Source: Luteithermobacter gelatinilyticus (GTDB lineage: Bacteria; Pseudomonadota; Alphaproteobacteria; Sphingomonadales; Emcibacteraceae). Taken from it: a stretch of 64,000 nt of DNA. A program made the position numbers and the translations under genes. Of the stretch, positions 5,164-10,504 are shown one piece after another. Below the pieces are notes generated by a model, which saw only the letters and a program-made list of their open reading frames with translations, was not told the DNA's origin and made no database searches. The DNA lies in contig NZ_CP040517.1 in the NCBI RefSeq assembly GCF_005849285.1, positions 2,920,501 through 2,984,500 on the forward strand. Direction: 5' to 3'. Numbering within the stretch: position 1 is the stretch's first letter; every line of letters begins with the position of its first letter.

Positions 5164-6321
5164 ATGTTACAGAATCTCTTCGCCTTCCGCCGCGGTTCCG
5201 CTGACCGCCTGTTTTTCAGCCTGGCCTGTCTGTTCGCGGCAGGGGCTGTGCCGGTTCTTGTTTTGCACTATGGCGGAAGGCTGTCCTTTCTGACGCTCCC
5301 CCCGCCATACTGGCATGCTCATGAAATGATTTTCGGATTCGGCTTGGGCCTGATGGGCGGATATTTTGCGGCCGGCCTGCCCTTGCAGAAAAATGTTCTG
5401 TTGCTGATAAGCTGGCTGCTGGCCCGGATTGTGTTTCTTATTCCACCACCAAACATTTTTCTGCCAAACCTTTTCCTGTTTACGCCGCTTGTGATCCTTT
5501 ATCCTGGCCTGTTGTTTTTCTTTGTCGGCGGGCCCATGCTGAAAGCGGCCAAATCATGGCGCAACAGCATTTTCGGAATTATTCTGGCCGCCTTCCCGAT
5601 CCTGGATCTGGCGCTTGGCATCATGATATTCCGCAATGGGGACATGCCCGCGCCCGGCTTTTTTTCTTTCGGTTTGCTGCCCCTGATCGCCATGATTTAC
5701 GCCATGGGGGGACGCATCACCGCCGCCGCTACCAATGGCGCCTTGCAAAAACAAGGCCTCCGCCTGAACAAACCGTCCCAACCCCGTCTGGAATGGCTGG
5801 GCCTGGGGTGTCTCGCGCTGATGATTTTCAGTTTTGGCATGGGCCTACCCCCTTTCGTCAGCAGCCTGCTGGCGCTGGGATTTGCCGGCATCACCGCCCT
5901 GCGTTTGATCCGCTGGCATTTCTGGAAGCTCTCGGATCTTTCCATCCTTGCCCTGCACGGGGGCTTTTTCTGGCTCGCCGGCGGCTTCATCCTGATTGCC
6001 GCCCACCCGCTTCTTGAGCTGTTCAGCGTTGCCGATCTGCTGCACAGCCTGACCATTGGTGCACTCGGCACCCTGTCCATCACTATCATGACCCGCCTAA
6101 CCCTGCAACGCAGCCGCCAGCTGGTACGTCTGCCAGCTCTCACCCTGCTCATTCTTGGCGCCGTCAATCTGGCCGCGCTGCTGAGGCTGCTGTCCCCTTA
6201 TGCCTCCCCCGCGCTGCCAATGCTGGAGGCGGCGGCAGCCTTATGGTCCACCGCCTTTCTGTTGCAGCTTTTCTTCCTGATATCCGCCAAGCCCACACCC
6301 CCTAGAGTGAATTGTGAATAG
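5164..6321 (+). CDS. nnrS: NnrS family membrane protein
   Basis: Polytopic inner-membrane protein of 385 residues with about ten to twelve hydrophobic segments. The family signature HAHEMIFGFGLGLMGGY is at residues 52-68. NnrS proteins bind haem and copper and protect metabolism during nitric oxide stress; they are often regulated with denitrification genes, but no NO reductase is in this window. The last six codons (encoding RVNCE and the stop TAG) lie inside a copy of the palindromic repeat at 6303-6346, so the C-terminal tail is probably not ancestral. Confidence 0.9.
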   Translation: MLQNLFAFRRGSADRLFFSLACLFAAGAVPVLVLHYGGRLSFLTLPPPYWHAHEMIFGFGLGLMGGYFAAGLPLQKNVLLLISWLLARIVFLIPPPNIFLPNLFLFTPLVILYPGLLFFFVGGPMLKAAKSWRNSIFGIILAAFPILDLALGIMIFRNGDMPAPGFFSFGLLPLIAMIYAMGGRITAAATNGALQKQGLRLNKPSQPRLEWLGLGCLALMIFSFGMGLPPFVSSLLALGFAGITALRLIRWHFWKLSDLSILALHGGFFWLAGGFILIAAHPLLELFSVADLLHSLTIGALGTLSITIMTRLTLQRSRQLVRLPALTLLILGAVNLAALLRLLSPYASPALPMLEAAAALWSTAFLLQLFFLISAKPTPPRVNCE

Positions 6322-6377: not shown

Positions 6378-9326
6378 TTAATTCTGGCGCCAGCCGGCGA
6401 GCAGTTTTTCCGCCTCTTCGCGTCCCTCAAAATCTTGACCCGACTGCAACGCTTCCCGGAGCGGACGGAGAGCTTCGGCGCGCCGGCCCAGTTTGTCGAG
6501 GGTTACTGCCAGATGATATTTGATTTCCGGATTGCCATATTCTAGCGCCAGGGACTTCCGCAACAGCGGCAACGCCACCTCGGGCCGGCCCCGACGGGTT
6601 TCGATCCACGCCAGCGTGTCCAGAATCGTGACATCTTCCGGTCGCAGTTCCTGCGCCCGGCGAGCATATTCCACGGCCTTTTCTTCATTTCCCAGAAGGA
6701 ACTGCACATTGGCGGCATTATTCAGAACGGCGGGCATATCGGGGAACCGCTTGAGCAGCGTTTCATAATGAACCACGGCTTTTTCAAGCTGCCCATCCAG
6801 CTTATAAGCCGTCCCGAGCGTAAGGCCCAGGGGCAGATCCTGGGGATATTTTTCCGTCCATTTTTCCAGCAGAGCAATGGCCCGCGGCAGGCGGTCGCTG
6901 TCCCGATACACTTTGAACAGACCCAGGACCGCCAGGGGATTATCCCCGATCGTCATGGCCTTTTTATAGGAGGCTTCGGCCTTGTCCAGATCCCGCAGCG
7001 CATAATACAGATTCCCTTCGAGAATATCCGCCGCCGGCGATCCCGATGTGATTTTGCGCAAGGATTTGAGCAGTTCCAGACCATTAAGCCGGTCCCGTTC
7101 TTCAATGGCGATATTGATTAGGGCGATATAGGCCTCCCGCAGCTCAGGGTCCCAGGCGATAGCCTTGCGAAAGGCAGACGCCGCGCCCTTGCGGTCATTG
7201 GTCCGCAATTGCGCCGCGCCCAGCGCCATCAGCGCCTCCCCCCGATTGATGGCATATTCCACCGCCATTTTATAGGATTTAATGGCCGCCACCGGATCAT
7301 TGGCCTGCATATAAAGGCGTCCCAAAAGATCATAGACGTCCTTGTCTTCGGGGAACCGGATGGTGAAGGACTGCGCCACCTCAATGGCTTTGTCCAGCTC
7401 CTCCACAGCCGCATAGCCCTCAGCGAGCTTGGCCAGTGTGGCAAATGTCTCCCCATCCAGGGAATAGGCCTTTTTATACCAGAACAGCGCTTCTTCGGGC
7501 TGACCGGCCTTGGTGAACAGGTCTCCCAGTTCCGTCATCAGCACCACGGACTCGGGATGCCTGCCCAGTTGCCCCTTAATCCGGTCAATGGCCTTGCGGA
7601 CGTCCCCGGCAATCAAATCCATCCGCGCCAGATGAATATGAGCGGAGATATTTTCCGGATCAAGTTCCAGCGCTTTCTCAAAACTTTGCCGCGCCAGGTC
7701 ATGCTGCCCGTCTAGCCCCACAGCCACAGCGTGAAGCTGATGCAGGAACGAACTGTCCGGATCCTGTTTTTTCAGCTCTTCCACGATGGCAATGGCTTTT
7801 TTATGGTCTCCGGCCTTCTGATAGGCCTGGGCCAGCAGCAACTTGATCCGGGTTGAATCCAGATTATGCTGTTCCGCCTTGATCAGATTCTGAATGGCTT
7901 CGGAAATGGACCCGGCCGCCATTTTCCCCCGCGCCAGATTGGTCAGGCCCTGGGCCGAGGTGGGCAGCAACGAAACTACCCGTTCAAAATAATAATTGGC
8001 TTTGCGTACATTGCCCATTTCCAGATAAGCCATGCCCAGAAGCGTAAGAATGGTGGGGTTGTCCGGCTGTTCCCGATAGGCATCCACAAGGACAAGGCTT
8101 GCCGCCATCGGGTCCCCGGCCTGCAATTCCAATGCCCCCAGAACCCGGCGGGCGCCAATGTCGTTTTTCTCCAGTTTCAAATATTCCTGCAAAAACTCCC
8201 GGGCCTCATCAAGGTTCCCAAACTGGAAATTCGTCAGTCCCGCCAGATAATAATAGGACGGGTTGTTTTTCATGATCTCTTCGGGAACGGCCCGCAGGGT
8301 ATTAATCACTTCATCCATTTTCTCCCGCGATTCCCCCAAATCCCCTGTGGCGGCCGCAATCACCGCCTTCAGATATTTGGCCCGCGGTTCGCGGGGAATT
8401 CTTTCCAGAATATAATCCACATCCTCTTCGGCTTTTTCGTATTCCCTGAGATCCACATACAGAGCCGCCCGGGTCAGGCGTGCCGCCAGATGATCCGTCG
8501 CCAAAGCCAAAGCTTCATTAATGGCGGTCAACGCTTCCCGGGGAAACCCCTGCATTTTGTATATCTGGGATTTCATAAGCCAGGCATTGGGCAAAGGGGT
8601 CAGGCCTTGCAGGGCCTGATCAATATACGCCATGGCCGCCCCATATTGTTTTCGGGTGGCGGCCACCTGGGCGCGCCCCAGCATGGCGTTCTGATGATCG
8701 GGGTTAAGCTCCAGGGCCCTGGCAAAGCTGCGGTCCGCATTGGCCAGTTTGCGTTGTCCCAGATACGCCTGCCCACGCAGAAAAGCGATTTGTGTTTCGA
8801 TCAGCCGGCCGCGATTGCCAGGGCGGATGGTCTCCAGCACCTTGTCATATTTGTTTTGCAGAATGTAGGATTCGCCGAACAACACCGCCAGGCGATCCGC
8901 ATCCGCGCCAAGAGAGCGGGCGAAGTTGAGTTCGATTTCCGCCGCCGCCCCGTCCCCGCGGGCAATCAGCGCCTCGGCCATCAGAAGCCGCGACGCCAAA
9001 TGATCGGGGTCGGCTTTCAAAGCATTACGCAAATGAATGATGGTGGCCTCGATATCCCGTTGATGGAAACTGGTCAGGGCTTTTTCATAGGCGCTATTGG
9101 CGTCAGCGCCCAAGGCCGGAAAAGGGGTCATCCCCCCGCCCAGACACAGCGCGATCACAAGAATCCCTGTCCTCAGCAAAGACTGCGGCCCCCGAGCCCG
9201 CACCACGGCTCTTTGGGAGCCGTCAAAGGTTGTGCTGTTGTCCCGGTCCCTGTCCGGGCCGCACAAAAGACGAAACCCTGTGTCTATCTTCCAGCGGATC
9301 TGTTCAAAACTTTTTTGATATCTCAT
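6378..9326 (-). CDS. prsT: PrsT-like TPR protein of the PEP-CTERM system
   Basis: About 982 residues built almost entirely from tetratricopeptide repeats, e.g. AFLRGQAYLGQRKLANADRS and GTAYKLDGQLEKAVVHYETL. After a hydrophobic stretch near residues 50-75 (signal or anchor), repeats run to the C-terminus. Size and repeat pattern match the PEP-CTERM-associated PrsT family, usually encoded in exosortase/exopolysaccharide regions. The assignment gains weight from the PEP-CTERM protein gene 416 bp away on the other strand. No clean lipobox is visible, although typical PrsT proteins are lipoproteins. The start is uncertain: the longest frame begins with TTG at 9380, ATG 9326 is preferred, and a start nearer the hydrophobic stretch is possible. 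No exosortase is in the window. Confidence 0.75.
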   Translation of the reverse strand: MRYQKSFEQIRWKIDTGFRLLCGPDRDRDNSTTFDGSQRAVVRARGPQSLLRTGILVIALCLGGGMTPFPALGADANSAYEKALTSFHQRDIEATIIHLRNALKADPDHLASRLLMAEALIARGDGAAAEIELNFARSLGADADRLAVLFGESYILQNKYDKVLETIRPGNRGRLIETQIAFLRGQAYLGQRKLANADRSFARALELNPDHQNAMLGRAQVAATRKQYGAAMAYIDQALQGLTPLPNAWLMKSQIYKMQGFPREALTAINEALALATDHLAARLTRAALYVDLREYEKAEEDVDYILERIPREPRAKYLKAVIAAATGDLGESREKMDEVINTLRAVPEEIMKNNPSYYYLAGLTNFQFGNLDEAREFLQEYLKLEKNDIGARRVLGALELQAGDPMAASLVLVDAYREQPDNPTILTLLGMAYLEMGNVRKANYYFERVVSLLPTSAQGLTNLARGKMAAGSISEAIQNLIKAEQHNLDSTRIKLLLAQAYQKAGDHKKAIAIVEELKKQDPDSSFLHQLHAVAVGLDGQHDLARQSFEKALELDPENISAHIHLARMDLIAGDVRKAIDRIKGQLGRHPESVVLMTELGDLFTKAGQPEEALFWYKKAYSLDGETFATLAKLAEGYAAVEELDKAIEVAQSFTIRFPEDKDVYDLLGRLYMQANDPVAAIKSYKMAVEYAINRGEALMALGAAQLRTNDRKGAASAFRKAIAWDPELREAYIALINIAIEERDRLNGLELLKSLRKITSGSPAADILEGNLYYALRDLDKAEASYKKAMTIGDNPLAVLGLFKVYRDSDRLPRAIALLEKWTEKYPQDLPLGLTLGTAYKLDGQLEKAVVHYETLLKRFPDMPAVLNNAANVQFLLGNEEKAVEYARRAQELRPEDVTILDTLAWIETRRGRPEVALPLLRKSLALEYGNPEIKYHLAVTLDKLGRRAEALRPLREALQSGQDFEGREEAEKLLAGWRQN

Positions 9327-9660
9327 GCCGTCCGTGTCTTTGATTATTAAAGATTTATTTAGAGCTCTGCCCCTAAACAATGTAAAACCATATATTACTG
9401 CAACAGAGTTATGAATAAGAAAGGTTACAATTTCTCTAAAATACGGTTTTCACACAGAGAGGGGCGAGTTCCCAAAGACGATCGGTTCTGCCAAATATGG
9501 CGTGACCCATAAGACGTGTGCCCTAAGACAAAAGCGGGCAGGAAGCGCGCCTGTATCATTTTAAGACATTGCCAGACATGCTGTCGGGAATCTTTACACA
9601 ATACTGAAGCGCCTCCATAACTAATTTTATTAACGTACTGACTCTATTGCATTTTATATA
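9327..9660. other. non-coding gap between prsT and the PEP-CTERM gene
   Basis: AT-rich in parts, with no convincing ORF. Apart from the sigma-54-type promoter at its right edge I see no defined element. The prsT promoter should be at its left end but is not recognisable. Confidence 0.5.
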
Positions 9661-9677
9661 TTGGCACATTAATTGCT
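9661..9677 (+). promoter_or_regulatory. sigma-54 (-24/-12) promoter of the PEP-CTERM gene
   Basis: TTGGCACATTAATTGCT fits the RpoN consensus TGGCAC-N5-TTGCW. The invariant GG (9663-9664) and GC (9675-9676) are separated by exactly 10 nt. Predicted transcription start is near 9688, giving a leader of about 55 nt. PEP-CTERM genes elsewhere are known to be driven by RpoN with the PrsK/PrsR two-component pair, so the site fits the gene behind it. Confidence 0.75.
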
Positions 9678-9742
9678 TTACAAGTTCAGAGACTAACGAA
9701 AGACGTATATTGCGACATTTTAAAAAGAACAGGTTGGGTAAA

Positions 9743-10504
9743 ATGAGAATAGTGAAACTGTTAGGTCTTGCCGCCGGGCTGAGCCTCGCCATCGTTTCAT
9801 CGGCATTCGCCATTGATTACGATATTACCGACAATTACATCGGCAAAGGGGATAGCCGGGATGTCATCGGGGGCTACAGATATGATGTTTACGGCATGAC
9901 CGTGGACAGAAGCGACAGCGGTGTCATGACCGTGCGCATTTACACCAAATTTGTGGATCATGTGGGGACCTATGAGTACGGGGACCTGCTGATGACCACC
10001 TCCGGCTGGAATCCGTATGGTTCCGCTCCGTATTACGGTGACGACTTTCAAAGAACCGGCACCACTTGGGAATATGCCTATGACCTGAATGGCGCCCGGG
10101 ACACACAGGGCAGTTTTGTCGACCACAACTCCGCCGAATTGGTGCAGATGCAATATCCTTCCTGGTCAGGATCCTATGAATATGGCAGCGAACGTTATGA
10201 TGGTCATAGCGTGAATGACCATATTTATCGGGTCAATGACCGCTACACCACATCGCTTGGCGGCGGCAGCGTCGAAGCCAATACGGCCGACAATTATCTG
10301 GAATTTATTTTTGATGTCAGCGGCACGTCCCTGGCGACGGCAAACCAGATCGCCTTCCACTGGACCATGAGCTGTGCCAATGACATTATCGAAGGCGTGA
10401 AACATTTCAACGGCACCACCGTGTCGGAACCGGCCGTGATGTCTCTGCTGCTGGCCGGTGTAGCGGGCCTGTTATATCGTCGCCGGCGTCTCCGGTTGTA
10501 CTGA
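9743..10504 (+). CDS. PEP-CTERM sorting domain protein
   Basis: 253-residue secreted protein of unknown function. ATG 9743 gives an ideal signal peptide (MRIVKLLGLAAGLSLAIVSS, cleavage after AFA), so the longer upstream frame is not used. The mature part is rich in Tyr, Asp and Gly. The C-terminus has the sorting signal layout: VSEPAVMSLL (a Glu-Pro variant of PEP), a hydrophobic segment LLAGVAGLLY, then RRRRLR. Exosortase enzymes recognise this tail and hand the protein to the cell surface or extracellular matrix. Preceded by a sigma-54 promoter and followed by a strong terminator, so it is monocistronic. Confidence 0.88.
   Translation: MRIVKLLGLAAGLSLAIVSSAFAIDYDITDNYIGKGDSRDVIGGYRYDVYGMTVDRSDSGVMTVRIYTKFVDHVGTYEYGDLLMTTSGWNPYGSAPYYGDDFQRTGTTWEYAYDLNGARDTQGSFVDHNSAELVQMQYPSWSGSYEYGSERYDGHSVNDHIYRVNDRYTTSLGGGSVEANTADNYLEFIFDVSGTSLATANQIAFHWTMSCANDIIEGVKHFNGTTVSEPAVMSLLLAGVAGLLYRRRRLRLY

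Follow-up and report, generated by a model that had tools for sequence, protein, structure and literature searches.

The locus considered here raises the question of whether a sigma-54-type promoter match upstream of a putative PEP-CTERM gene in Luteithermobacter gelatinilyticus is a genuine regulatory element and, if so, to which circuit it belongs. In the window, the 64,000-nucleotide stretch of DNA that was analysed, this match lies between the gene for a 253-aa protein and the divergent gene for a 982-aa TPR protein (Table 1). The evidence set out below suggests that the region from 9552 to 9677 is very probably the switch of one target gene of a complete XrtA/PEP-CTERM (exosortase A) system of the conventional kind. 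As such, it is a well-supported, ordinary example of a circuit known since 2006.

Table 1. Features of the PEP-CTERM/prsT locus (positions in the window)
Feature	Position	Strand	Evidence
Sigma-54 -24/-12 promoter TTGGCACATTAATTGCT	9661..9677	+	Sequence; conserved in orthologues
Motif 1 TGTCGGGAATCTTTACA, predicted PrsR binding site (upstream activator sequence)	9582..9598	+	
TGT-N11-ACA dyad TGTATCATTTTAAGACA, probable second activator site	9552..9568	+	Conservation in orthologous loci
PEP-CTERM protein of 253 aa with a signal-peptide-like N-terminus, a beta-rich body and a sorting tail	9743..10504	+	ORF, model matches, homologues, predicted structure
PEP-CTERM tail VSEPAVMSLLLAGVAGLLYRRRR (residues 227-249)	10421..10489	+	TIGR02595 and PF07589 alignments, hydrophobicity
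PrsT, 982-aa TPR protein, divergent from the PEP-CTERM gene	6378..9326	-	TIGR02917, synteny in relatives

The promoter is a complete match to the -24/-12 consensus. Its GG and GC fall at 9663-9664 and 9675-9676, which places the predicted transcription start near 9688, and 65 nt separate the element from the ATG of the PEP-CTERM gene. In a first-order Markov simulation, a 64-kb window is expected to contain 0.26 perfect-score (11/11) sites over its two strands, and one is observed; taken alone, the match is therefore moderately unlikely to arise by chance and only suggestive. Across the genome (3.15 Mb, one contig), TGGCACN5TTGCW occurs ten times, against two occurrences of a reversed-pattern control. 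The reality of the promoter is decided by conservation. All seven orthologous loci in named records contain a matching sigma-54 site in the same prsT/PEP-CTERM intergenic region, scoring 11 in six cases and 10 in one. The textbook element described in the original prediction is thus borne out. A minus-strand sigma-54 site serving the window's prsT gene was looked for and not found.

The promoter forms half of a composite element with motif 1, located 63 nt upstream. This activator site, absent from the original prediction, is the more telling half of the composite. Motif 1 is common to the genome's PEP-CTERM genes and is conserved in orthologues: both elements are kept in each of ten orthologous loci compared, the window included, with a spacer of 62-64 nt. 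This bears directly on the possibility that the -24/-12 match is a coincidence and that the gene uses another promoter. An expectation of 0.26 perfect matches per window leaves some room for such a coincidence, but the conservation of position and spacer in 10/10 loci reduces its probability to a negligible level. The TGT-N11-ACA dyad is also present in all ten loci, where it precedes motif 1 by 30-31 nt (42 nt in one locus), with 0.12 such dyads expected per intergenic region from shuffling. The window composite has a 17-nt motif ending TTTACA, a spacer within 32-92 nt and a sigma-54 site (taken as 9662-9677), as in the system of Haft et al. 2006 (PMC1569441), the motif having been compared through the wording of that paper. 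The upstream motif was considered as a new element; this was dropped, as it is already in Haft et al. 2006.

The same architecture recurs within the genome, where a common motif near TGTCRGNNNNNTTTACA lies upstream of the PEP-CTERM genes, ahead of the -24/-12 element. The strict composite pattern is found at six places, each of them ahead of a PEP-CTERM gene, and the control gives no match; the 17-nt motif 1 alone is found 17 times versus twice in the control. When exact and weaker sigma-54 sites are both counted, the composite precedes nine of the ten PEP-CTERM genes found. The spacers range over 51-85 nt, and five of them measure 63 nt. The weaker sites were admitted once the motif had been recognised, which makes the six strict matches the cleaner count. 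The gene at G000:C1:1274958, one of these nine, falls outside the Pfam-derived list. The gene lacking the composite encodes a metalloprotease-like protein whose tail has IPAPS. Upstream of that gene (L104; G000:C1:1597762-1597846) there is a sigma-54-like site (TGGTACAGAATTTGCT), with a nearby motif 1 located downstream of the site and in reverse orientation.

The remaining components of the system are encoded in the same genome. A single exosortase A gene (TIGR03109, 309 bits, cut-off 208) carries a fused EpsI domain and adjoins the gene for a PEP-CTERM FemAB protein; an XrtA-associated ATPase, a TIGR03016 outer-membrane protein and a chain-length determinant are encoded nearby. The exopolysaccharide-linked models TIGR03019, TIGR03015, TIGR03016, TIGR03007 and TIGR03013 are all matched above cut-off. 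PrsK (673 bits, cut-off 300) and PrsR (703 bits, cut-off 502.6) are encoded in tandem behind a TIGR03013 glycosyltransferase, and the genome has one RpoN. The original prediction had linked RpoN here to the PrsK/PrsR circuit and had looked to an exosortase, prsK/prsR and more PEP-CTERM genes preceded by sigma-54 sites as its checks. Each of these is found, and the presence of XrtA, PrsK, PrsR, PrsT and RpoN in one genome supports the link.

Because the genome encodes about ten sigma-54 activator domains, the specificity of PrsR for the composite site is something we infer. The same domains would allow a genuine sigma-54 site to be driven by an RpoN activator other than PrsR. However, motif 1 is common to nine PEP-CTERM genes and, over the class as a whole, the composite goes with PrsR, as in Haft et al. 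2006, making this alternative distinctly improbable. Control by PrsR remains the preferred assignment.

The association with PrsR was assessed over 385 evenly sampled alphaproteobacterial genomes. PrsR is present above cut-off in 32, and the strict composite occurs in 16 of these versus 4 of the 353 without a PrsR match (Fisher p=3e-16, a value uncorrected for relatedness, which overstates the independence of these related genomes). The composite thus tracks PrsR over the sample, with half of the PrsR-positive genomes showing no strict match. G268, which has the composite and no PrsR match, is congeneric with two PrsR-positive genomes. The count of 32 makes it fair to call PEP-CTERM systems uncommon in this class, as was originally stated; their occurrence there was already known (Haft et al. 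2006, PMC1569441).

The product of the switch would be the 253-aa protein. Analysis of sequence and hydrophobicity identifies a signal peptide, a PEP-like motif, a helix and a basic end, and the C-terminus (VSEPAVMSLLLAGVAGLLYRRRRLRLY) has the form VSEPA-helix-RRRR. The exosortase-type tail originally proposed is therefore present, with two qualifications: the motif is VSEPA in place of PEP, and the model scores are borderline. The protein scores 15.8 bits against TIGR02595 (cut-off 16) and 16.3 bits against PF07589 (cut-off 20.7) in hmmscan; a six-frame genome search gave exactly 20.7 bits, marked over cut-off. By these values it is a marginal match to the PEP-CTERM models. Such features might be expected of a protein that is no exosortase substrate and whose C-terminal helix keeps it in the membrane, with a degenerate motif left unprocessed. 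Set against this, the majority of orthologues at the same genomic place have canonical VPEPA-helix-RRR tails (for example VPEPAALGLLLLGLAGVGFARRR), and the gene lies in a regulon of canonical PEP-CTERM genes and adjoins a PrsT gene. A non-substrate is thus a highly unlikely reading, and the protein is treated here as a probable exosortase target. TIGR02595 is matched by 6/8 members of its family, with a best E-value of 2e-6.

Relatives of the 253-aa protein occur in 10 of 61 genomes searched (its own counted), all in one taxonomic family, and the named records are MAGs labelled Emcibacter, Kordiimonas or unnamed Alphaproteobacteria. The family is seen only in Emcibacter-like relatives; a plasmid search found no relative, and the papers searched included none that connects Emcibacter with exosortase. 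Structure prediction gives a beta-rich fold (pLDDT 69, pTM 0.70) with a low-confidence C-terminal helix at residues 230-252. Because a Foldseek search of this structure against the PDB returned nothing at E<=0.001 and the best PDB sequence match (AMdnB, E=0.002) is marginal, no function is claimed for the body of the protein. Two relatives (L087, 7085-7705; L051/L052) have the PEP-CTERM gene duplicated in tandem, with no sigma-54 site seen directly upstream of the second copy, suggesting co-transcription or other control.

The divergent neighbour was originally described as PrsT-like, and this holds: the 982-aa protein matches TIGR02917 at 633 bits (cut-off 312) over model positions 7-898 of 899. 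The qualification is that it is the second PrsT copy of the genome, as another PrsT (670 bits) directly follows prsK-prsR; the two share 28% identity. As to the lipoprotein signal that Haft et al. 2006 describe for PrsT, the N-terminal segment of the window copy (RTGILVIALCLGGGMTPFPALGADA) contains a Cys within what is, by eye, a poor lipobox (Leu before Cys). The head-to-head PrsT/PEP-CTERM pair is kept in relatives, and a ribonucleotide reductase gene adjoins it in seven named loci. This module of a PEP-CTERM gene and a PrsT copy with a two-dyad operator, conserved in the lineage, is a less ordinary feature of the locus. On its other side, the window's PrsT gene is adjoined by a gene for an NnrS-family membrane protein (5164-6321; PF05940, 181 bits), for which no connection with the PEP-CTERM/PrsT finding was seen.

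If the circuit operates as proposed, the first step would be phosphorylation of PrsR by PrsK. PrsR would then bind motif 1, and probably also the upstream dyad, some 80-110 bp ahead of the -24/-12 element, and remodel the closed RpoN-polymerase complex to allow transcription. The 253-aa product would be exported via its signal peptide, with the C-terminal helix holding it in the inner membrane. Next, exosortase A may process the protein near the VSEPA motif, and it would pass to the outer surface or the exopolysaccharide layer. PrsT would act as a TPR helper of this export route.

Two described systems are close to this arrangement. Haft et al. 2006 (PMC1569441) described a motif 1 of 17 nt that ends TTTACA and is sometimes repeated, followed after a spacer of 62.8 +/- 10.6 nt by a 17-nt sigma-54 motif 2. 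The two motifs co-occur with PrsK, PrsR and PrsT, and the alphaproteobacterial cases listed include Rhodospirillum rubrum and 'Acidophilum cryptum'. The likeness extends to both 17-nt motifs and an approximately 63-nt spacer, the PrsK-PrsR tandem, PrsT, EpsH, a PEP-CTERM unit consisting of one gene preceded by a long upstream region, and alphaproteobacterial examples. In contrast, the present locus has a second PrsT copy divergent from the PEP-CTERM gene and keeps a TGT-N11-ACA dyad upstream of motif 1; Haft et al. do mention occasional repeats of motif 1. In Aquincola tertiaricarbonis RN12 (PMC9850573, 2023), RpoN-dependent pepA lies beside prsT and has a TGGCAC/CTGCTT promoter with a mapped start. 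Both loci place a PEP-CTERM gene beside prsT, with a TGGCAC-type promoter and a predicted enhancer upstream, and in RN12 epsB2 with prsK-prsR is likewise found elsewhere in the genome. The Aquincola prsT is downstream of pepA, not divergent, and the window protein is outside the PepA family, with only its tail matching NF033554. For Zoogloea, control of PEP-CTERM genes by PrsK-PrsR and RpoN is stated as background in PMC9012009.

The composite also occurs away from PEP-CTERM genes. An HPr-rel-A cassette at G000:C1:1865749-1867796 (L033 5723-7797, minus strand) carries motif 1 and a sigma-54-like site with a 62-nt spacer. The cassette encodes an HprK-related kinase A (TIGR04352) together with a PqqD-like protein and a small Tat-signal-like protein, both recognised by eye, and no PEP-CTERM protein. 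One other genome (L093) has such a composite with a 64-nt spacer and two motif-1 copies, giving 2 of the 11 HPr-rel-A cassettes in the sample. One tentative possibility, which we consider somewhat doubtful, would be that PrsR/RpoN also controls the HPr-rel-A cassette and that, in Emcibacter-like bacteria, a duplicated PrsT is tied to one private substrate with a two-site operator. If true, the PrsR/RpoN regulon would be wider than the PEP-CTERM genes. Neither the cassette nor the PrsT module alters the overall verdict of a known circuit.

These results confirm an intact PEP-CTERM regulatory circuit for this lineage of alphaproteobacteria. The compact regulon, with ten candidate targets in 3.15 Mb, offers a testbed for the predicted PrsR site, and the conserved association of one PEP-CTERM family with a divergent PrsT copy of its own may provide a handle on the role of PrsT.
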